Of a stretch of 64,000 nt of DNA, positions 12,423 through 21,373 are shown piece by piece. Source of the stretch: Curtobacterium sp. ISL-83 (lineage in GTDB: Bacteria > Actinomycetota > Actinomycetes > Actinomycetales > Microbacteriaceae); assembly GCF_018613895.1 (NCBI RefSeq), contig NZ_JAGGPH010000003.1:62001-126000 (forward strand), read 5' to 3'. A program made the translations under genes and the position numbers. Numbering within the stretch: position 1 is the first letter of the stretch; every line of letters begins with the position of its first letter. Below the pieces are notes generated by a model, which was not told the origin of the DNA, ran no database searches, and was given only the letters and a program-made list of their open reading frames with translations.

Positions 12423-12471
12423 ATCCTGTACGTGCCCACCCACCAGGGCGCGACCATCAGGAAGGGTGTCG

Positions 12472-14493
12472 ATGACCGCGCTCGACGTCACCCGACAGGA
12501 CCGCCGTCGGCTCACCACCGGCACGTCCCGTCGGCGCCTCGTCACCGTGCGCGTCGCGGCACTCCTCGCGTCGCTCGCGGGCCTGGACTACATCGTCTGG
12601 CGCTGGACCGCCTCGGTGAACTGGCACTCGTGGTGGATCGCCGTCCCGCTCATCCTGGCCGAGACGTACAGCGTCATCGACTCGCTGCTCTTCGCGCTCG
12701 GGGCCTGGCGACTGCGGGAACGCGGCGAGCCCCCCACGAAGCCGGGTTCCGATGTCACGGTGGACGTCTTCATCACGACCTACAACGAGCCCGTCGAGAT
12801 GGTCGAGCGGACCGCGCGTGCCGCCAAGGCGATCACGCACCCGCACACGACGTGGATCCTCGACGACGGGAACCGCCCCGAGATGCGCGCAGCGGCCGAC
12901 GCGCTCGGGGTCGGCGTCATCACCCGGGGTGCGGACTGGGTGGACCGCCCGCGGCACGCGAAGGCGGGCAACCTCAACAACGCCCTGCTCGCGACCCAGG
13001 GCGAGTTCCTGCTCATCCTCGACGCCGACCAGGTCCCGGAACCGGAGATCCTCGACCGCACGCTCGGCTACTTCAAGGACCCGCGGATGGCCCTCGTGCA
13101 GACGCCGCAGTGGTTCGAGAACGTCTCCGCAGCGGACCTCCTCGGCAGCCAGGCGCCCCTGTTCTACGGGCCGATCCAGCAGTCGAAGGACGGCTGGAAC
13201 GCCGCGTTCTTCTGCGGGTCGAACGCTATCCTCCGGCGGGAAGCCCTGATGCAGCTCGGTGTGACACGTTACGTACGCGAAGTCGAGGCGTCCGTGCAGC
13301 GCACGATCAAGACGTCCCGGACGCTGCTCGGCCGAGCGCGCGAGACCGAGACGGACCCGCGGGTGCTCGCCGCCCTCGACGAAGCAGCAGCGGTCGTCGA
13401 CCACGCGCGCGACCAGGTCGCGGCCGGCGAACCGCTCGGTGACGTCACCTTCCACTTCCAGCGCGGCATCGATGCGATCTCCTACCGCTTCGCCGCGGAC
13501 GACCTGGCGTCGGTGCGACAGGACCTGCAGGAGCTCGCCGCGATGTCCACCGAGCCCGACACGTTCGCCGGTCTCGACGACGCCGCGCTCGACGTCCTGG
13601 GGCGGCGCGACGCCTCGCCGGTGGCAGCGATCGAGGCCATCGCCGTGCTCGCCAGGGCCCTCGACGTCAACCGTGACGACGAAGCGCAGCCGATCATGCC
13701 GCTGGCGACCATCTCCGTGACCGAGGACATGGCCACCGCGATGCGCCTGCACGGCCTCGGGTGGAAGTCGGCGTACCACGACGAGATCCTGGCGGTCGGG
13801 CTCGCCCCGGAGGACCTGCCGACCATGCTCGTGCAACGGCTCCGGTGGGCACAGGGCACCATGCAGGTGTTCTTCCGCGAGAACCCGCTCCTGCAGAAGG
13901 GCCTGTCCTGGGGGCAGCGCCTGATGTACTTCTCGACCATGTGGAGCTACCTGTCCGGCTTCGCGGCGATCGTCTACATCGCGGCACCGGTCCTCTGCCT
14001 GTCGTTCGGGGTCATCCCGGTCCAGGCGTACAGCGTCGACTTCTTCGCCCGCCTCATCCCGTTCCTCATCCTCAACCAGCTGCTGTTCTGGGTGGTCGCG
14101 GCCGGCCGCCCCACCTGGCGGGGGCAGCAGTACTCGCTCGCGCTCTTCCCGGTCTGGATCGAAGCCGTCACCAGTGCGTTCGAGAACGTCTTCCGGGGCA
14201 AGCCCCTGGGGTTCCGGGTCACGCCCAAGGTGCGCGACAGGACCGAGCAGAAGCCCCGCTGGGACCTCGTGAAACCGCAGCTGTACGCGATGGGTGCGCT
14301 CGCCGCCGCCCTGGTCATGATCGGCATCCGGTACCTGTCCGGGCAGGCGTCGGGCATCGCGCCCCTCGTGAACACCGCCTGGGTCGTCTTCGACCTGTTC
14401 ATCTTCAGCATCGTGATCCGGGCCGTCCGCTACCGGGGACCCGTGGACGTCCAGTCCGAGCACGTATCGAGCACCGCAGGAGGACCACTGTGA
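12472..14493 (+). CDS. Processive GT2 polysaccharide synthase, cellulose-synthase-like
   Basis: This 673-residue membrane glycosyltransferase polymerises a beta-linked polysaccharide from a nucleotide sugar while exporting it. Two N-terminal membrane spans lead into the catalytic domain: DDG at 131-133, DAD at 184-186, FFCGSNAILRREAL near 245-258, TED at 417-419 and QRLRW at 455-459, then about six C-terminal spans. Roughly 150 residues separate the acceptor FCGS block from TED, where BcsA-type enzymes have about 20; this insert holds charged helices. No PilZ domain is seen. ATG 12472 fits AGGAAGG better than GTG 12466. It overlaps the next gene by 4 bases. The polymer is unknown. Confidence 0.9.
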   Translation: MTALDVTRQDRRRLTTGTSRRRLVTVRVAALLASLAGLDYIVWRWTASVNWHSWWIAVPLILAETYSVIDSLLFALGAWRLRERGEPPTKPGSDVTVDVFITTYNEPVEMVERTARAAKAITHPHTTWILDDGNRPEMRAAADALGVGVITRGADWVDRPRHAKAGNLNNALLATQGEFLLILDADQVPEPEILDRTLGYFKDPRMALVQTPQWFENVSAADLLGSQAPLFYGPIQQSKDGWNAAFFCGSNAILRREALMQLGVTRYVREVEASVQRTIKTSRTLLGRARETETDPRVLAALDEAAAVVDHARDQVAAGEPLGDVTFHFQRGIDAISYRFAADDLASVRQDLQELAAMSTEPDTFAGLDDAALDVLGRRDASPVAAIEAIAVLARALDVNRDDEAQPIMPLATISVTEDMATAMRLHGLGWKSAYHDEILAVGLAPEDLPTMLVQRLRWAQGTMQVFFRENPLLQKGLSWGQRLMYFSTMWSYLSGFAAIVYIAAPVLCLSFGVIPVQAYSVDFFARLIPFLILNQLLFWVVAAGRPTWRGQQYSLALFPVWIEAVTSAFENVFRGKPLGFRVTPKVRDRTEQKPRWDLVKPQLYAMGALAAALVMIGIRYLSGQASGIAPLVNTAWVVFDLFIFSIVIRAVRYRGPVDVQSEHVSSTAGGPL

Positions 14494-14903
14494 CCGCCGC
14501 ACGCACGTCGTTCGAGATCGCCGCGACCGTCGGGTCTCTGGACGAGGTCCAGGACCGCTTCGCCGCGTGGTGGGACGGACTCGGCATCGACGACGTGCGG
14601 CTCCGCTTCGGCCTCGAAACCGCGTTGGCCGAGGTCGCGGCGAACATCGTCGAGCACACCCTCCGGACCGACCGCGAAGCCGGACGGCGCTACACGGTCG
14701 AGCTCGACGCGACCGAACACGAACTCATCGCCGTGCTCAGCGACAACGGTCGGCCTGTCGACGTCGACCTCAGCGCGGTGACGATGGCGGACGTGCACGA
14801 AGAGAGCGGACGCGGTCTCGCGCTGGCGATCGCCGCGCTCGACCGGCTGGAGCACCGGCACGAGGGCGGACGGAACATCTGGACGCTTGCGTGCGCCCGT
14901 TGA
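14490..14903 (+). CDS. RsbW-like anti-sigma/serine kinase-type ATPase (HATPase_c_2)
   Basis: This 137-residue single-domain GHKL ATPase has an N box ETALAEVAANIVEH, a G1-like box DNGRPVD and a G2-like box ESGRGLALAIAALD. Relatives phosphorylate anti-anti-sigma factors or act as phosphatase/kinase partners. GTG 14490 overlaps the synthase stop (GTGA) and has AGGAGGA just upstream, so it is translationally coupled. No anti-sigma antagonist or sigma factor is nearby. A post-translational switch on polysaccharide synthesis is inference. Confidence 0.85.
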   Translation: MTAARTSFEIAATVGSLDEVQDRFAAWWDGLGIDDVRLRFGLETALAEVAANIVEHTLRTDREAGRRYTVELDATEHELIAVLSDNGRPVDVDLSAVTMADVHEESGRGLALAIAALDRLEHRHEGGRNIWTLACAR

Positions 14904-17404
14904 GGCGCCGCACGGTCCGAGCGGTCGCACTCCTCGTCGCCATCGCGAGCCTGGTCCTGGGTGGCGTGCTGCCGGCTTCCGCTGCGGCCGCCGGGTCTCC
15001 TTCCGACCGGCCCAGCGCGGGGACGACGTGGTTCGGTCCGGACCTCGACTGGGGTGCGGACGCTCCCGACGGGTACGCCGGACGGCTGGGGGCGGTCCCG
15101 TCGATCTACGGCGTCGAGATCGGCTACCCGGTCGACCGCACTGCGGAGCGGCAGCTGCTCCGGTCCGCCCGTGCCGCTGCGACCCAGGGCGCGGTGCTCA
15201 CGGTCAGCCTGGAGCCGAGCGTGTCCCTCGGCAGTCTCACCGCTGCCGACGCCCGTCGCGCGAACCACCTGTTCGAGCAGCTGCACGCGCAGTACGACAC
15301 CACCGTCCTCGTCCGCTTCGCGCCGCAGATGAACGGCACGTGGGTGCGGTGGGGGCAGCAGCCGACGCAGTTCCTCCGGGCCTTCCGCGGGTTGGCGTCG
15401 ACCGTGCACGCCGGCACCTCGAAGGCCGCCATGGTGTGGGCGCCCTCCTACGGCGCCGGGTACCCGTTCGGTGACTCGGCCGGGCGGCTGCGCGACCTGT
15501 CCGCCGCCGACGTGGCCAGGCTCGACACGAACGGTGACGGGCAGCTCACCGCGGCGGACGACCCGTACGCGCCGTACTGGCCAGGGGCGTCGAGCGTCGA
15601 CTGGGTGGGTCTGTCGATGTTCTCGTTCGGCAAGGGCAAGGCCACGCAGGCAGCCGGCAGCGAGGTGTCCCTCTCCCGCAACGAGGTCCCGGCCGCCGGC
15701 GAGGTCCAATCGCGCTTCGACGAGACCTGGGGGTACCAGCGACGGCAGCCCGAGGGCACGTTCTACGACCGGTTCGCCGCCGGCGAGGACCTGCCGATGC
15801 TCCTGGACACCGGTGCGCTGTACGACCCCTCGTTGCGCGGTGCCGACCAGCTGCAGGTCGAGCAGGGCTGGTGGCGGCAGGTCATCGCGGCCGTGCGGGA
15901 CAAGCCGCTCGTCCAGGGCATCACGATCATCGAGGCGCATCGGCGTGAACCCGAGGCCGGCAACCGCATCGTCGACTGGCGGCTCACCGGGGTGCCGGCG
16001 ATCGCGCACGCCTTCCGCGCCGACCTGCGGCAGGCGGACCGGTTCGTGTTCGGTCCGGTGACCGAGCGGGTGACCGCGAAGGACGGCGCGGCGGCGACGA
16101 ACCAGCAGTACGACACCGGCGGCGACCAGATGGCGTGGATCGTCTGGTGCGCGGCCGGCCTGGCCGCGGTGTTCCTGCTCAGCGGGCTGGTCGGCCGGCT
16201 CATCCCGAGCTGGCGCTACCCCGACGACGGGAAGCCGGGGCGCGACCTGCGTCTCGACCTGTTCCGCGGGTTCATCATCCTGGCCGTGGTGATCACGCAC
16301 ATCGAGATCGGTGGCCCGTACTCGTACCTCACGCTGCACGCCGTCGGTGCGATCACGGGCGCGGAGATGTTCGTGTTCCTGTCCGGGATGGTCCTCGGCA
16401 TGACGTACCCGTTCGCGATCAAGAAGTTCGGCGAGTGGGCCGCTGCGGTCGGTGCGTGGAAGCGCGCCCGGAAGCAGTACCTCGTCACCCTCGGGGTGAT
16501 CGCGGTGGTCTTCGCGATGAGCTTCATCCCGTTCCTGCACACCGACGCGATCACGACCTTCACCGACCGGGGGACGGGCACCGGCGGTGTCAGCGCCGAG
16601 GGTCGGGTCTACGACCTGTACCCGAACGCCGTTCAACTGCTCGCGTACCCGCCGCCCTGGTACGCGATCCGGCAGTTCCTGCTGCTCGAGATGGGCCCGT
16701 GGCCGTTCAACATCATGGGGTTGTTCGTGGTGCTGAGCCTGTTGATCCCCGCGTTCATGTGGGTGATCCGGCGGGGGTTCTGGTGGGCGCTGCTCATCGT
16801 GAGCTGGGCGCTGTACGTGTTCCAGGCGCTCAACCCGGCGTTCCGTCCGCTCAACTCGCAGTTCGAGGCCGTCTTCCCGCTCCTCACCTGGCAGGTGGTC
16901 TTCACGCACGGACTCGTCCTCGGGTACTACCGGCGGCAGATCGTGGGTGCGCTGACCGGACGGCTCGGCAAGGTGCTCATCGGGGTCGGGATCGGCGGGT
17001 ACGCCCTGTTCCTGGTGTACGTGTGGGCCGGCCACCACTTCGGGTTCACCCCGGCGCCGTTCCCGTCCGGCCTGTACGAGACGCTCTACAACAACGCCTA
17101 CCAGCGGGTCGACCTGCAGTGGGGGCGTCTGGTCGACATCGCGTTCTTCGCGATCGTGTCGTACGCGATCCTCACGGTGTTCTGGAAGCCGATCGCCGGG
17201 GTCATCGGCTGGCTGTGGATCCCGATCGGGCAGGCGAGTCTCTACGTCTTCGTCTGGCAGGTCTTCTTCGCGCTCGCGATCGCGTCGATCCCGGGGTTGG
17301 ACTGGAACGACTTCTGGATCGGCTTCGCCACCCACTCGCTGCTGATCCTGCTCGCGTGGTACATGGTGCGGAAGCGCTTCCTGTTCTCGATCATCCCGCG
17401 CTGA
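14891..17404 (+). CDS. GH26-like domain fused to an OpgC-type acyltransferase
   Basis: This 837-residue protein has a signal peptide at residues 1-31, a GH26-like domain at about 40-380 and, from residue 414, about ten membrane spans of OpgC/acyltransferase-3 type (LDLFRGFIILAVVITHIEIG). In GH26 the acid/base and nucleophile are Glu. Here the equivalent positions read PQMNGTW (Gln146) and MLLDTGA (Asp306), so hydrolysis is doubtful and glycan binding more likely. A calcium-loop motif DTNGDGQLTAAD lies at 212-223. OpgC adds succinyl groups to glucans. GTG 14891 overlaps the ATPase end; TTG 14900 is an alternative. It is the last gene of the operon, followed by palindrome D. Confidence 0.83.
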   Translation: MRPLRRRTVRAVALLVAIASLVLGGVLPASAAAAGSPSDRPSAGTTWFGPDLDWGADAPDGYAGRLGAVPSIYGVEIGYPVDRTAERQLLRSARAAATQGAVLTVSLEPSVSLGSLTAADARRANHLFEQLHAQYDTTVLVRFAPQMNGTWVRWGQQPTQFLRAFRGLASTVHAGTSKAAMVWAPSYGAGYPFGDSAGRLRDLSAADVARLDTNGDGQLTAADDPYAPYWPGASSVDWVGLSMFSFGKGKATQAAGSEVSLSRNEVPAAGEVQSRFDETWGYQRRQPEGTFYDRFAAGEDLPMLLDTGALYDPSLRGADQLQVEQGWWRQVIAAVRDKPLVQGITIIEAHRREPEAGNRIVDWRLTGVPAIAHAFRADLRQADRFVFGPVTERVTAKDGAAATNQQYDTGGDQMAWIVWCAAGLAAVFLLSGLVGRLIPSWRYPDDGKPGRDLRLDLFRGFIILAVVITHIEIGGPYSYLTLHAVGAITGAEMFVFLSGMVLGMTYPFAIKKFGEWAAAVGAWKRARKQYLVTLGVIAVVFAMSFIPFLHTDAITTFTDRGTGTGGVSAEGRVYDLYPNAVQLLAYPPPWYAIRQFLLLEMGPWPFNIMGLFVVLSLLIPAFMWVIRRGFWWALLIVSWALYVFQALNPAFRPLNSQFEAVFPLLTWQVVFTHGLVLGYYRRQIVGALTGRLGKVLIGVGIGGYALFLVYVWAGHHFGFTPAPFPSGLYETLYNNAYQRVDLQWGRLVDIAFFAIVSYAILTVFWKPIAGVIGWLWIPIGQASLYVFVWQVFFALAIASIPGLDWNDFWIGFATHSLLILLAWYMVRKRFLFSIIPR

Positions 17405-17423: not shown

Positions 17424-17471
17424 GACGGACTGGAGGCGCGGTGCCAGCTGGCACCGCGCCTCCAGTCCGTC
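17424..17471 (+). terminator. Intergenic palindrome, copy D, operon terminator
   Basis: A perfect 22-bp stem (17424-17445 / 17450-17471) with loop agct. It is the cleanest copy of the family. It ends the polysaccharide operon and also faces the convergent Gfo/Idh/MocA gene, so it can serve both strands. Confidence 0.85.
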
Positions 17472-17492: not shown

Positions 17493-18602
17493 TTACCCGG
17501 AGACGGGCGCGGCGGCGGGCGCGAGCGCCGCGCGCACCGATGCCCACGCCGCGAGCCGTTCCCGGACCGCGTCGTGCCGCTCGGCGCGGAGCGCCTCGGC
17601 GTGAGCCGCTTCGAGGACCTCGTCGATGACGATCCGTCGACCGCTCCGGGCGGAGGCGATCGCCGCCTCCACCATCGTCAGGCTCATCACGTTGCCGTGC
17701 ACCTCGCCGTCCGGGACCTCACCCGAGCGGACCGCGTGCACGAACGCGGCCAGTGAACCCGCGATCTCGTTGCCGACGCTCGTCGCGTCGGCCGGCGCCC
17801 CGGGCACGCCGTCGAGGTCGCTCGACGGGTCGTGGTCGCCGTCCCACAGTGCCGTGCCCGCCGCACCCGAGGCGCGCCAGTCGCCGTTCCACGAGGTCTC
17901 CGCACCCGGAGCGCACCACGAGCCGTCGTAGACGTACCGGACGTCGTCCTCGAACGTGAACACGGCGGCAGCGGCGGCGTCTCCGCGGTACCAGGACCAC
18001 GACGGGTTCCAGGACTCGCAGTACACCGACACCGGATCGCGTTCCAGCACGTAGCGGGCGGAGTCGAACGCGTGGATCGCCATGTCGAGGAGCAGGACGT
18101 CGTCCATCGCCTCGCGGAAGCCGCCGAAGTGCGGGGCCTTCGCGAAGCGGGTGTTCAGCCCGCCCAGGGCGCCGAGCCCACGGACGTGCTGCCGGAACGC
18201 GACGAGCTGGTCGTTGTAGCGCCGTGACTGGGACACCATGAACAGCTGGCCGGTCGCCTCGGCCGCGGCGGCGAGGGACAGCGCCTCGGCGACGGTCTGC
18301 GCGGCGGGCTTCTCACCCAGGACCGGCAGCCCGGCGTGCAGGGCCTCGAGCGTCACCGGGTGGTGCGCGACCGGGACGGTGATGTCGAGCACCGCCTCGG
18401 CGCCGGTCTCGCGGGCGAGGGCGGTGAGGTCCCGACCGACCGGGATCGACGCGTCGCCGGCGAGTTCGGCTCCGGCGCGCGCGGCGTCGAGGTCGAGGTC
18501 GACGATGCCGACGAGCTCGACGTCCGGGTCGGCGGCGACGGTGCTGAGCCACGCGCGGCCCATCCCGCCCGCGCCGACCTGCACGACGCGCAGGGCGGTC
18601 AC
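17493..18602 (-). CDS. Gfo/Idh/MocA family oxidoreductase, ThuB-like
   Basis: This 369-residue NAD(P)-dependent sugar dehydrogenase-like protein has a Rossmann motif VVQVGAGGMGRAWL, the GEKPAAQTVAEA signature (the usual EKP) and a C-terminal alpha/beta domain with DMAIHAFDSARY. GTG 18602 overlaps the ThuA stop by 4 bases. In rhizobia ThuB acts with ThuA on trehalose- or sucrose-type disaccharides, giving 3-keto derivatives; the same role here is inferred from gene order. Confidence 0.88.
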   Translation of the reverse strand: MTALRVVQVGAGGMGRAWLSTVAADPDVELVGIVDLDLDAARAGAELAGDASIPVGRDLTALARETGAEAVLDITVPVAHHPVTLEALHAGLPVLGEKPAAQTVAEALSLAAAAEATGQLFMVSQSRRYNDQLVAFRQHVRGLGALGGLNTRFAKAPHFGGFREAMDDVLLLDMAIHAFDSARYVLERDPVSVYCESWNPSWSWYRGDAAAAAVFTFEDDVRYVYDGSWCAPGAETSWNGDWRASGAAGTALWDGDHDPSSDLDGVPGAPADATSVGNEIAGSLAAFVHAVRSGEVPDGEVHGNVMSLTMVEAAIASARSGRRIVIDEVLEAAHAEALRAERHDAVRERLAAWASVRAALAPAAAPVSG

Positions 18603-19411
18603 GCTTGCGCCCCGGCTGCTGCGGGCTCGTCCACGGGTGCGTCGTCGAACGGGCCGCGGTAGTGCTGCCCGTCGAAGTACTCACCCAGCTCGTAGCGGCG
18701 GAGCGTCGGGATCTCGCGCTCGCGTTCGGGCCGTGCCCACTCGGTGGCGTTCGCGATCACGCGGCGGACGTCGGGGTGGTGGTAGACGGGGAAGTCCTGG
18801 TCACCGGGGGAGAAGTAGAAGATCTTCCCGAAGCCGCGGCGGTACGTCATGCCGCTCCGGAACACCTCGCCGCCGGTGAAGCCCGAGATGAAGACGAGCT
18901 CGTCGGGGGTCGGGACGTCGAAGTACTCGCCGTACATCTCCTGTTCCGGGATGACGATGGGGTTCGGGACGCCGCGCGTGATCGGGTGCTGGGGGTTCAC
19001 GGTCCAGACGAGTTCCTGGTCGTGCTCGCTCCGCCAGCGCAGCGTGCACGTCGTGCCCATGAGCTTGCCGAAGATCTTCGACCAGTGGCCGGAGTGCAGC
19101 ACGATGAGGCCCATGCCGGAGAGCACGTGCTTGTGCACGCGGTCCACGACGGCGTCGTCGACGTCCTGGTGCGCCGCGTGGCCCCACCACGTCAGGACGT
19201 CCGTCTCGGCGAGGACCTCGTCGGTCAGCCCGTGCTCGGGGTCCTGCATCGTGACGGTGCGGACGACGGCGTCCGGCAGGTGTTCGCGGATGCCCGCGGC
19301 GATCGCGCCGTGCATGCCCTCGGGGTAGCGCTCGGCGACGTGCTGCTCGACCTGCTCGTGGACGTTCTCGCCCCAGACGGTGATGCGCAAGCGGGTGGTG
19401 GTGTCGCTCAT
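18599..19411 (-). CDS. thuA: ThuA-like trehalose utilisation protein
   Basis: This 270-residue protein has the ThuA glutamine-amidotransferase-like fold: LRITVWGENVHEQ at the start, VLTWWGHAAHQDV, GMGLIVLHSGHWSKIFGKLMG, RRGFGKIFYFSPGDQDFP and HHPDVRRVIANATEWA at the end. ThuA proteins act with ThuB in disaccharide breakdown. ATG 19411 lies 121 bases after the permease stop, a gap that could hold a processing site but shows no strong promoter. Its stop overlaps the start of the ThuB-like gene. Confidence 0.9.
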   Translation of the reverse strand: MSDTTTRLRITVWGENVHEQVEQHVAERYPEGMHGAIAAGIREHLPDAVVRTVTMQDPEHGLTDEVLAETDVLTWWGHAAHQDVDDAVVDRVHKHVLSGMGLIVLHSGHWSKIFGKLMGTTCTLRWRSEHDQELVWTVNPQHPITRGVPNPIVIPEQEMYGEYFDVPTPDELVFISGFTGGEVFRSGMTYRRGFGKIFYFSPGDQDFPVYHHPDVRRVIANATEWARPEREREIPTLRRYELGEYFDGQHYRGPFDDAPVDEPAAAGAQA

Positions 19412-19532
19412 GTCGTTGGTTCTTCTTCCCTGTTCGGGGTGGTTCCTGGTGTGATCGGTTCGTTCGGCGCCGTCCTGCGGCGGGTCCGGCGCGGCCTCCG
19501 GCGCGGTGGGTCCGGCGCGCTCTCGAGCGCGG

Positions 19533-20423
19533 TCACTTCACCGCTCCGCCGAGGGCGCCCGCCGAGATGTACCGCTGGGCGAAGATCAGGAGCACGGCCG
19601 CCGGGAGGGACGCCAGGACCGACGTCGCCATCACCGGACCCCAGTCGGTCACGTTCGACCCGATGTAGTTGTAGATGCCGAGGGTGATGGGCCGGACCGC
19701 GGTCGTCGACGTCAGGGTGAGCGCGATGAGGAAGTCGCCCCACGCCCCGAGGAACGTGAACAGCGCCGCCGTGACGATGGCGTTCCGGCTGATCGGGACG
19801 ACGATCGACACGAACGCCCGGAAGTCGCTCGCCCCGTCGACCAGGGCGGCCTCGACCAGGCTCGGCGGGATCGACTCCATGAACGCCCGCATGAGCAGGA
19901 TCGCGAAGGGGACCTGGACGGCGCTGTCCGCCAGGATCAGCCCGATGTAGCTGTTGAGCAGTCCGACGGAGTTGAACAACGTGTACAGGGCGTTCGCGAT
20001 GACGATCGCCGGGATCATCTGCGTGATGAGCAGCACGAGCAGGAAGACCCGCGTGCCGCGCATCCGGAACCGGGCGAGTCCGTACGCGGCCGGTGTCGCG
20101 ACGAGCAGGGTGAGCACGACGGTCCCCAGCCCGATGATCATGCTCGAGACGAAGTTCTGCCCCTGTTGCTCGAACGCCGCCTGGTACCCGGCGAAGGTCG
20201 GGCTGAACGGGAACCACGTCGCCGTGGCCGCGCCCGAGGTCGCCTGCAGGCTCGTGTTCACCATCCAGTAGACGGGGAACACCATGATCGCCAGGAACAC
20301 GATGCCGAGGATCGTCAGCGGGATGCCCTTGACGCTGCCGCGCGGCCGGGGGGCCTTCGTGCTCCGCCGGGTCGTGATCGCGCGGGTGGCGGTGACGGTC
20401 TGGTTCGCGAGTCCGACGCTCAT
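19533..20423 (-). CDS. Carbohydrate ABC transporter permease (MalG-type)
   Basis: This 296-residue permease has six membrane spans and the EAA loop EAALVDGASDFRAFVSIVVPISRNA, which docks the ATPase. It pairs with the permease at 20420-21373, overlapping it by ATGA. ATG 20423 was chosen over longer upstream reading because of this coupling and the family N-terminus. The sequence FARFRM/PAAYGLARF is typical of the MalG class. Confidence 0.92.
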   Translation of the reverse strand: MSVGLANQTVTATRAITTRRSTKAPRPRGSVKGIPLTILGIVFLAIMVFPVYWMVNTSLQATSGAATATWFPFSPTFAGYQAAFEQQGQNFVSSMIIGLGTVVLTLLVATPAAYGLARFRMRGTRVFLLVLLITQMIPAIVIANALYTLFNSVGLLNSYIGLILADSAVQVPFAILLMRAFMESIPPSLVEAALVDGASDFRAFVSIVVPISRNAIVTAALFTFLGAWGDFLIALTLTSTTAVRPITLGIYNYIGSNVTDWGPVMATSVLASLPAAVLLIFAQRYISAGALGGAVK

Positions 20424-21373
20424 TCGTCGACCGCCTTCCTGGAGATCGCGATGTACACCATCGCGAAGACGAACGAGACGACGATGAGCACGTTGCTCAC
20501 CGCGGCTCCGATGCCGAACTGGAAGTTGATGAAGGACTGGTGGTACGCGTTGGTCGCCAGGGTCTGCGTCGAGTTCGCCGGTCCTCCGCCGGTGAGCCCG
20601 AGGATGATGTCGACGACCTTCAGGGTGTAGACGACCCCGAGCACGATCACGACGCTGACCACCGACCGGATGCTCGGCCAGGTGATGTACCGGAAGGCCT
20701 TGAACCCGGTGGCGCCGTCGAGCGAGGCGGCCTCGTACAGCTCCGGCGGCACGGACTGCAGGCCGCTGTAGAGGATGGTCGTGTTGAACGGGATGCCGAG
20801 CCACACGTTGACGCCGATCACGGCGATCAGGGCCAGGCTCGGGCTGACCAGCCACGGCACCGGGGCGATGCCCACGACACCGAGCAGCTGGTTCAGCGCG
20901 CCGCTGTCCTGGTCGAGCAGCCACTTCCACACCGCGCTCGAGGCGATGAGCGGCAGGAGCCACGGCAGGAGCAGCAGCCCGCGCAGGAACCCCGAGAGCG
21001 GGAAGTGCCGCCGGAAGAACAGCGCGAGGGCGAGGCCGATGACGAACTGCAGGATGATCGACCCGGCGGTGAACAGCGCCGTGTTCACGACGCTCGTCGC
21101 GAAGACCGAGCTCTGGAACACCGAGATGTAGTTGCCGAGCCCGACCCAGGGGGCCTCACCCGTGAAGAACGTCTTGGTCGTGTAGTCCTGGAAGGACATC
21201 ACGATGTTCTTCGCCACGGGGTAGCCGAAGAACAGGGCCACGAACACCGCGGCCGGGACGACGAACAACCACCTGGTGGCCGCGGCCCGTCGCCGGGCCC
21301 GGCGTTGGCCGGGTCGTGGTGGTGGGGTCACGGGCAGGGACGTCCGTGGCCGGGTCTGTGTTGAGGCGCTCAC
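20420..21373 (-). CDS. Sugar ABC transporter permease (MalF-type)
   Basis: This 317-residue permease has six spans and the EAA loop YEAASLDGATGFKAFRYITWP. The N-terminus is a basic cytosolic tail. GTG 21373 is preceded by GAGAGGAACCGG on the minus strand. It forms the membrane channel with the MalG-type partner. The binding-protein gene lies 59 bases upstream, so all three are one transcript. Confidence 0.92.
   Translation of the reverse strand: MSASTQTRPRTSLPVTPPPRPGQRRARRRAAATRWLFVVPAAVFVALFFGYPVAKNIVMSFQDYTTKTFFTGEAPWVGLGNYISVFQSSVFATSVVNTALFTAGSIILQFVIGLALALFFRRHFPLSGFLRGLLLLPWLLPLIASSAVWKWLLDQDSGALNQLLGVVGIAPVPWLVSPSLALIAVIGVNVWLGIPFNTTILYSGLQSVPPELYEAASLDGATGFKAFRYITWPSIRSVVSVVIVLGVVYTLKVVDIILGLTGGGPANSTQTLATNAYHQSFINFQFGIGAAVSNVLIVVSFVFAMVYIAISRKAVDE

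Follow-up and report, generated by a model that had tools for sequence, protein, structure and literature searches.

A BcsA-like synthase operon of Curtobacterium and its putative control by a partner-switching module

The RsbU/RsbV/RsbW and SpoIIAA/SpoIIAB partner switches are recognised by a DSSGLG phospho-site and a kinase N-box; kinases of the RsbW/SpoIIAB type are known for STAS substrates, and RsbW/RsbV/PP2C modules are classically anti-sigma systems. Here we analysed a window of 64,000 nucleotides from Curtobacterium sp. ISL-83, part of contig C28 of a 3.6 Mb assembly (G000), in which a family 2 glycosyltransferase (GT2) synthase gene is followed by an RsbW/SpoIIAB-like serine kinase gene and by gene 3, a GH26-like domain fused to OpgC_C (Table 1). 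Comparison with related loci leads us to favour, by a modest balance of probability, a locus that encodes a BcsA-like beta-glucan synthase governed by a partner switch and not by cyclic di-GMP.

Relative to RsbU/RsbV/RsbW and SpoIIAA/SpoIIAB, the module in this locus family has the same domains, DSSGLG phospho-site and kinase N-box, and differs in that an enzyme is co-encoded and that no sigma partner exceeds the cut-off in the Curtobacterium genome studied here. In Vibrio fischeri, SypA and SypE are the STAS protein and serine kinase of a polysaccharide system with unphosphorylated STAS as its active output, and the parts of the papers cited here call an anti-sigma antagonist or stressosome role unlikely (PMC8256260, PMC11112999). 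The likeness is in layout only, a STAS protein and a serine kinase tied to a polysaccharide; SypE is a single dual kinase/phosphatase, whereas here the kinase and the PP2C phosphatase are two proteins and the locus itself encodes the likely target. HmpU, HmpV and HmpW of Nostoc punctiforme form the same set of phosphatase, STAS and kinase with the STAS as output, but are implicated in hormogonium development, and the cited sections name no synthase as target (PMC6495340, PMC8256260). A STAS domain is also fused to a glycosyltransferase in Anabaena all4160 (PMC8256260), at the N-terminus in the description cited, whereas the two fusions reported below carry it at the C-terminus. SypA and HmpV are outputs whose target or effector is given as unknown or undefined in these sources (PMC8256260, PMC11112999, PMC6495340); here a candidate target is co-encoded, and because it bears an insert and is fused to STAS in two genomes, the question can be reduced to a binding assay. 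If true, the output of partner switching would here be a polysaccharide synthase in the membrane and not a sigma factor, and a BcsA-like synthase could be gated without a PilZ domain. No description of this locus was found in the open-access literature by titles and abstract openings, a search that mostly did not cover subscription papers.

The open reading frames (ORFs), a GTGA overlap between the GT2 and kinase genes, a 13-base overlap between the kinase gene and gene 3, and the Pfam domains are all present, confirming the three genes as a genuine operon, as a preliminary description made from the sequence of this DNA had proposed. Among the findings that would refute it, that description had named a triad not conserved outside this strain. 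GT2, kinase and gene 3 are consecutive at 37 of the 38 main-clade loci taken from genome_contigs (36 named Curtobacterium, 2 Microbacteriaceae); the exception, L060, ends shortly past the kinase. Being conserved far outside this strain, the triad withstands that half of the test. All 38 main-clade loci carry the kinase and none a STAS or PP2C gene in the DNA examined (33 with full flanks), so that the complete partner-switching trio is not encoded together at the window locus. In relatives, GT2 and kinase lie about 110 codons apart, and the space between them encodes a STAS protein whose phospho-site reads DSSGLG; the phosphatase lies upstream or downstream of GT2, on either strand. Away from the main Curtobacterium clade, we counted genes anywhere, on either strand, in the 45 loci whose flanks reach at least 3.5 kb both ways: STAS was found in 44, the kinase in 43, PP2C in 41 and GH26/OpgC in 31. 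The complete module of STAS, kinase and SpoIIE-type phosphatase occurs in one locus with GT2 in 41 of the 45, and every one of the 43 loci holding the kinase also holds STAS. STAS, kinase and SpoIIE identities were established by Pfam on examples, with a GAF domain in both phosphatases scanned, and the phospho-Ser of DSSGLG is present in 69 of 72 STAS rows outside a set of unlinked Curtobacterium STAS proteins considered below.

The arrangement extends to Frigoribacterium, Microbacterium, Nocardioides and Aeromicrobium, and loci of Arthrobacter, Paenarthrobacter and Cryobacterium have no GH26/OpgC gene downstream. GT2 occurs in 36 of 199 genomes of the family sample, our own counted (30 loci listed for 41 matched stretches), and among 396 genomes sampled across the phylum, full-length GT2 matches were found solely in our own and in G467, which has the whole five-gene set. 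One locus, L169, reads STAS, kinase, PP2C, GT2, STAS, kinase, with one synthase between two switch pairs. Judged by this gene content, the window triad is a reduced form of the wider STAS/kinase/PP2C locus, with the local STAS and phosphatase genes apparently lost in Curtobacterium. The preliminary description had the synthase switched through the kinase, by phosphorylation or partner binding. The link between kinase and synthase stands, but a STAS-mediated switch is likelier than direct phosphorylation of the synthase, because in relatives STAS lies between GT2 and kinase and PP2C is usually close.

Table 1 Coordinates of the features discussed, in the window unless a locus is named
Feature	Location	Strand	Details
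GT2 synthase gene	12472..14493	+	673 aa; ATG start 12472
Helical insert in GT2, about 147 residues (264-410)	13261..13701	+	directly before TED
FxVTxK-type gating-loop motif FRVTPK, residues 581-586	14212..14229	+	F581 and V583-K586 invariant in 44 rows
RsbW/SpoIIAB-like serine kinase gene	14490..14903	+	137 aa; GTG start 14490 within GTGA overlap
Gene 3, GH26-like domain fused to OpgC_C	14891..17404	+	GTG start 14891
Codon 146 of gene 3, presumed acid/base position	15326..15328	+	Gln; role by GH26 alignment
Codon 306 of gene 3, presumed nucleophile position	15806..15808	+	Asp; role by GH26 alignment
Perfect 24+24 nt palindrome	17424..17471	.	between two convergent genes
STAS fused to C-terminus of CelA-like GT2	L160:3944-6433, L161:3513-5927		genomes G133, G186, one genus
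Unlinked STAS-kinase pair, own genome, contig C8	L119:4744-5498		short STAS ORF C8:5163-5498, then second kinase; compare L162

The synthase itself carries the Pfam domains Cellulose_synt and Glycos_transf_2, matches BcsA 7lby at E 6.6e-62 (phmmer), and has BcsA 9b8v as the best Foldseek match of its AlphaFold model in the PDB (TMq 0.63; the model averages a pLDDT of 71.7, with lower values in the insert's second half). Its identity with Curtobacterium relatives reaches 91%. The motifs DDG (131-133), DAD (184-186), TED (417-419) and QRLRW (455-459) were all found and are invariant in a 44-row alignment, as are F581, V583, T584, P585 and K586 of FRVTPK, which we take to be the FxVTxK gating-loop motif of BcsA-type synthases; the earlier assignment to processive, beta-glycan-type GT2 enzymes is borne out. 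With BcsA (7lby, 4hg6, 9b8v) it shares the GT-A core motifs, TED, QxxRW, FxVTxK and the fold. It differs in lacking a detected PilZ domain (no match at E <= 0.1), in the insert before TED and in scoring below the CelA equivalog cut-off (TIGR03030, 344.6 bits against 699.1); against the MdoH model it scores 29.7 bits (cut-off 419). The insert was placed by phmmer, in which residues 32-263 and 411-647 map to 205-447 and 449-684 of 7lby, stretches that abut in BcsA. AlphaFold models helices at 256-292, 296-317, 322-358, 364-377 and 383-395, with pLDDT of 69-88 for residues 271-340 and 38-63 for residues 341-410. The TED helix of BcsA is the finger helix adjoining the acceptor; a partner docked on the insert would therefore lie near the moving part.

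We propose that unphosphorylated STAS would bind the synthase, probably at the insert, and switch it on; that the kinase would phosphorylate or hold STAS and so turn the synthase off; and that the SpoIIE-type PP2C phosphatase, with its GAF domain, would reset STAS upon a signal. Outside the cell the glucan would be acylated by OpgC and held by the GH26-like domain, whose presumed catalytic residues are replaced. For Curtobacterium, with local STAS and phosphatase apparently lost, the likeliest source of STAS would be an unlinked pair from a dead sister operon. Taken as a whole, a partner-switched BcsA-like synthase seems to us a somewhat better than even prospect, on the strength of comparative sequence evidence.

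The module accompanies the insert: among the matches listed, insert-bearing GT2 genes outside the main clade have STAS adjacent in all 27 cases and the kinase downstream in 25. The phylum sample gave 24 insert-less CelA-like matches. We examined 19 of their regions (5.8-12.5 kb): STAS, kinase and PP2C were found beside none of the 19 at E <= 1e-4, and the aligned GT2 spans fall 136-165 residues short of the model span that they match. In two genomes of one genus STAS is fused to the C-terminus of a CelA-like GT2. The fused STAS has TPAGLA at the phospho-site, the phospho-Ser being replaced, and no kinase was found within about 4 kb on each side. The fusion is our strongest hint at a direct action of STAS, in unphosphorylated form, on the synthase. 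A separate, divergent STAS comes after GT2 in G173 and G118 (E 2e-9 and 1e-8), with the kinase undetected. Across the kinase-free loci L158-L161 the insert is shorter, 126-127 residues from one motif used to the other where the remaining rows have 161-187, and an SPxxA segment near its end is gone.

We considered a kinase-docking role for SPxxAxE near the insert end and rejected it: the motif is missing in 20 of 150 GT2 loci, 15 of them with an adjacent kinase, and is kept in three STAS-bearing loci without one. Most of these 15 keep the looser SPxxA, those without it being L018 and L171/L215 (one gene twice). An association of SPxxA with the kinase is an idea that rests on two kinase-free lineages, too few to carry it.

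A STAS protein for the window synthase may come from elsewhere in the genome. Four STAS matches were found there, three in ORFs of 500-542 residues and one in a single short ORF, which is followed by a second kinase. Two of the long ORFs, of 542 and 516 residues and separated by about 6 kb, hold equal-scoring STAS matches at C28:110-328 and C28:6332-6550; we presume that they may be duplicated SulP-like transporters. Unlinked Curtobacterium STAS proteins have the phospho-Ser of DSSGLG in 7 of 7 distinct rows. The gene order in G163 is PEPC, PP2C (opposite strand), GT2 (57%), STAS (73%), kinase, AraC, and that of the main clade is PEPC, (MFS), STAS, kinase, AraC, with STAS directly after PEPC in 7 of 30 genomes compared. 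From this synteny it follows that a second operon lost its synthase and retained its switch, and the unlinked pair appears to be an old remnant of that operon. The STAS tree joins the unlinked pair to G163 (SH-aLRT 91); in the kinase tree the window kinase groups with the kinases of five-gene loci (support 99), and the unlinked kinases fall in a larger group that includes G163 (support 96), not as its sisters. A SpoIIE gene of our own genome (C1:223856-224467) is nearest to the phosphatase next to the synthase of G163 (46.5% over 434 residues, 355 bits; next 114) and is a candidate third part of a switch in trans.

We followed the unlinked pair through a genus sample of 60 genomes, in which GT2 is present in 56, STAS of the RsbV-like kind in 55 and unlinked STAS in 53; the latter count leaves out G163 and G249, where STAS lies beside GT2. 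For co-occurrence, 57 main-clade genomes were used after removal of G163 (linked operon), G249 (its sole STAS match lies within the intact five-gene locus L163) and G248, which has neither GT2 nor STAS and is the sister of G249 in the PEPC tree. GT2 and unlinked STAS occur together in 52 genomes; both are missing in G220 and G224, STAS alone is found in G202, and GT2 alone in G207 (790 contigs) and G221 (73% complete). MFS immediately precedes AraC in G220 and G224, which shows that the pair is really absent from both; gene 3 has no match in G220, G224 or G202. Fisher's test, which ignores kinship, gives p 0.011, and 0.002 without the two poor GT2-only assemblies. That the unlinked pair supplies STAS in trans to the window synthase is the weakest step of our proposal, a tentative one that we hold to be rather less probable than its opposite. 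Close to, yet below, even probability we place a wider reading, in which STAS docking on the pre-TED insert directly switches a whole class of processive GT2 synthases, and lineages have moved among three states, with STAS encoded next to the synthase, fused to it, or provided in trans by what is left of a dead sister operon.

The window kinase matches HATPase_c_2 in Pfam (42.6 bits, cut-off 27.4), with its N-box (E48/N52/H56) and G107-R108-G109 intact and both invariant in 49 of 49 main-clade rows, which agrees with its earlier reading as an RsbW-like regulatory kinase. It stays below the cut-offs of the curated RsbW equivalogs (17.2 bits against 145; 15.1 against 155.05), and phmmer against the PDB gave weak matches only, the best ones to designed proteins. 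Median ratios of nonsynonymous to synonymous substitution rates (dN/dS) in Curtobacterium are 0.13 for GT2, 0.185 for the insert, 0.35 for the kinase and 0.27 for gene 3; the corresponding values are 0.14, 0.214, 0.37 and 0.23 in Microbacterium with STAS, and 0.09, 0.168, 0.14 and 0.17 in Frigoribacterium with STAS, and the unlinked Curtobacterium pair gives 0.16 (STAS) and 0.38 (kinase). At a ratio like that of Microbacterium, though looser than in Frigoribacterium, the Curtobacterium kinase, together with the insert, remains under purifying selection.

Two other accounts of this kinase were weighed. It might work alone, binding or phosphorylating the synthase or its insert directly and making STAS unnecessary, as its translational coupling to GT2 through GTGA, its invariant active site, its dN/dS and the missing STAS at all main-clade loci would allow; we judge this unlikely, since RsbV-like STAS is kept elsewhere in 53 of the 60 genus genomes, every wider kinase-bearing locus with full flanks also holds STAS, and kinases of the RsbW type are known for STAS substrates. 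Alternatively, the kinase could be the leftover of a decaying switch, its synthase now unregulated at the protein level. STAS and PP2C are indeed lost at the locus, and the kinase ratio exceeds both that of the synthase and that of the Frigoribacterium kinase accompanied by STAS; but kinases of STAS-bearing Microbacterium and of the unlinked pair show the same ratio, the N-box and GRG box are unchanged, and the insert evolves within the range of STAS-bearing relatives, all of which make decay quite improbable.

A partner switch acting on the synthase has also to be set against an ordinary sigma-factor switch merely co-transcribed with it. RsbW/RsbV/PP2C are classically anti-sigma systems, and the weak NCBIfam matches of the window kinase are to RsbA/RsbW families, all under cut-off. 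Our own genome (88.84% estimated completeness) has no SigB/F/G-type sigma factor above the strict family cut-off; three clear matches below it, among the fragments scanned, are two RpoD-like and one FliA/WhiG-like. Given a strict cut-off and a single incomplete assembly, this absence is suggestive only. It is joined by the coupling of the module to the GT2 insert, the STAS-GT2 fusion in two genomes, and the joint absence of the unlinked pair and the GT2 operon from two main-clade genomes, so that we rate a sigma-factor switch as quite unlikely and infer that the target of the module would be the synthase rather than a sigma factor.

Several observations weigh against a partner-switched synthase. 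The profile hidden Markov models were trained on many of the loci later scored, and the 45 wider loci include near-copies (L071 and L163 are almost identical). L114 has the insert, but neither STAS nor kinase was found up to about 8 kb away, and four STAS matches lie elsewhere in that genome; L168 has STAS and no kinase. The fused STAS domains are barely above the Pfam cut-off (26.3 and 22.9 bits against 22.6), and the insert could have another role, for example in oligomerisation. Of 14 control genomes, no more than 1 reached the sigma-factor cut-off. The Fisher test rests on few losses, with kinship ignored, and a single event may account for both joint losses; one of the genomes concerned, G224, is estimated to be 65% complete although in one contig. 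G202 has the unlinked pair but no GT2 operon; the pair may therefore serve another target, and the dependence is not strict. The ratio of only 0.14 for the Frigoribacterium kinase means that some loosening may have occurred in Curtobacterium. Finally, in a comparison of distances over 62 loci, STAS has a partial correlation of 0.286 with the insert given the core and of 0.253 with the core given the insert, and kinase distances track the GT2 core more than the insert; this signal is not insert-specific and is therefore not used as support.

Gene 3 has OpgC_C (PF10129) at residues 451-826 (175.6 bits, cut-off 21.4, E 1.8e-51) and a GH26-like domain at about residues 45-385. The latter went undetected in the Pfam scan of the protein, and phmmer with gene 3 reached no better than E 0.014; the fold is settled by the AlphaFold model, for which all 16 PDB matches at E <= 0.001 are GH26 enzymes (most of them by title). 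A GH26-only homologue at L160:7279-8772 matches PF02156 at E 3e-10. Position 146, which by alignment with GH26 relatives we take to be the catalytic acid/base position, holds Q throughout the 37 main-clade rows and E throughout the 28 others. At position 306, the presumed nucleophile, all 37 have D and the other 28 vary (D 19, E 5, R 3, Q 1). Five GH26-only homologues near GT2 genes retain HEMNG and ET. With both presumed catalytic Glu positions replaced, the Curtobacterium domain is probably non-catalytic and likely a glucan binder, in line with the earlier suggestion that it holds the glycan. The OpgH/OpgC system of osmoregulated periplasmic glucans likewise has an OpgC_C acyltransferase domain beside a GT2 glucan synthase, but the synthase here is CelA-like, not OpgH-like, and OpgC is fused to the GH26-like domain. 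At the Curtobacterium locus L057 the GH26/OpgC gene (L057:10435-12912) has an in-frame stop, the preceding GT2 and kinase genes being open.

Around the operon, an in-frame GTG precedes the ATG of the GT2 gene, at 12466. The palindrome past gene 3, proposed earlier as a terminator, is perfect and is a probable two-way terminator, but it has no T tract and was not listed by the terminator scan. The sigma-70 promoter scan gave no sites, Rfam and PADLOC gave no matches, and none of the tandem repeats in the window overlaps the operon. Across the palindrome, convergent with the operon, the minus strand of the window at 17493-21373 encodes what by eye resemble an oxidoreductase, a ThuA-like protein and sugar ABC permeases.

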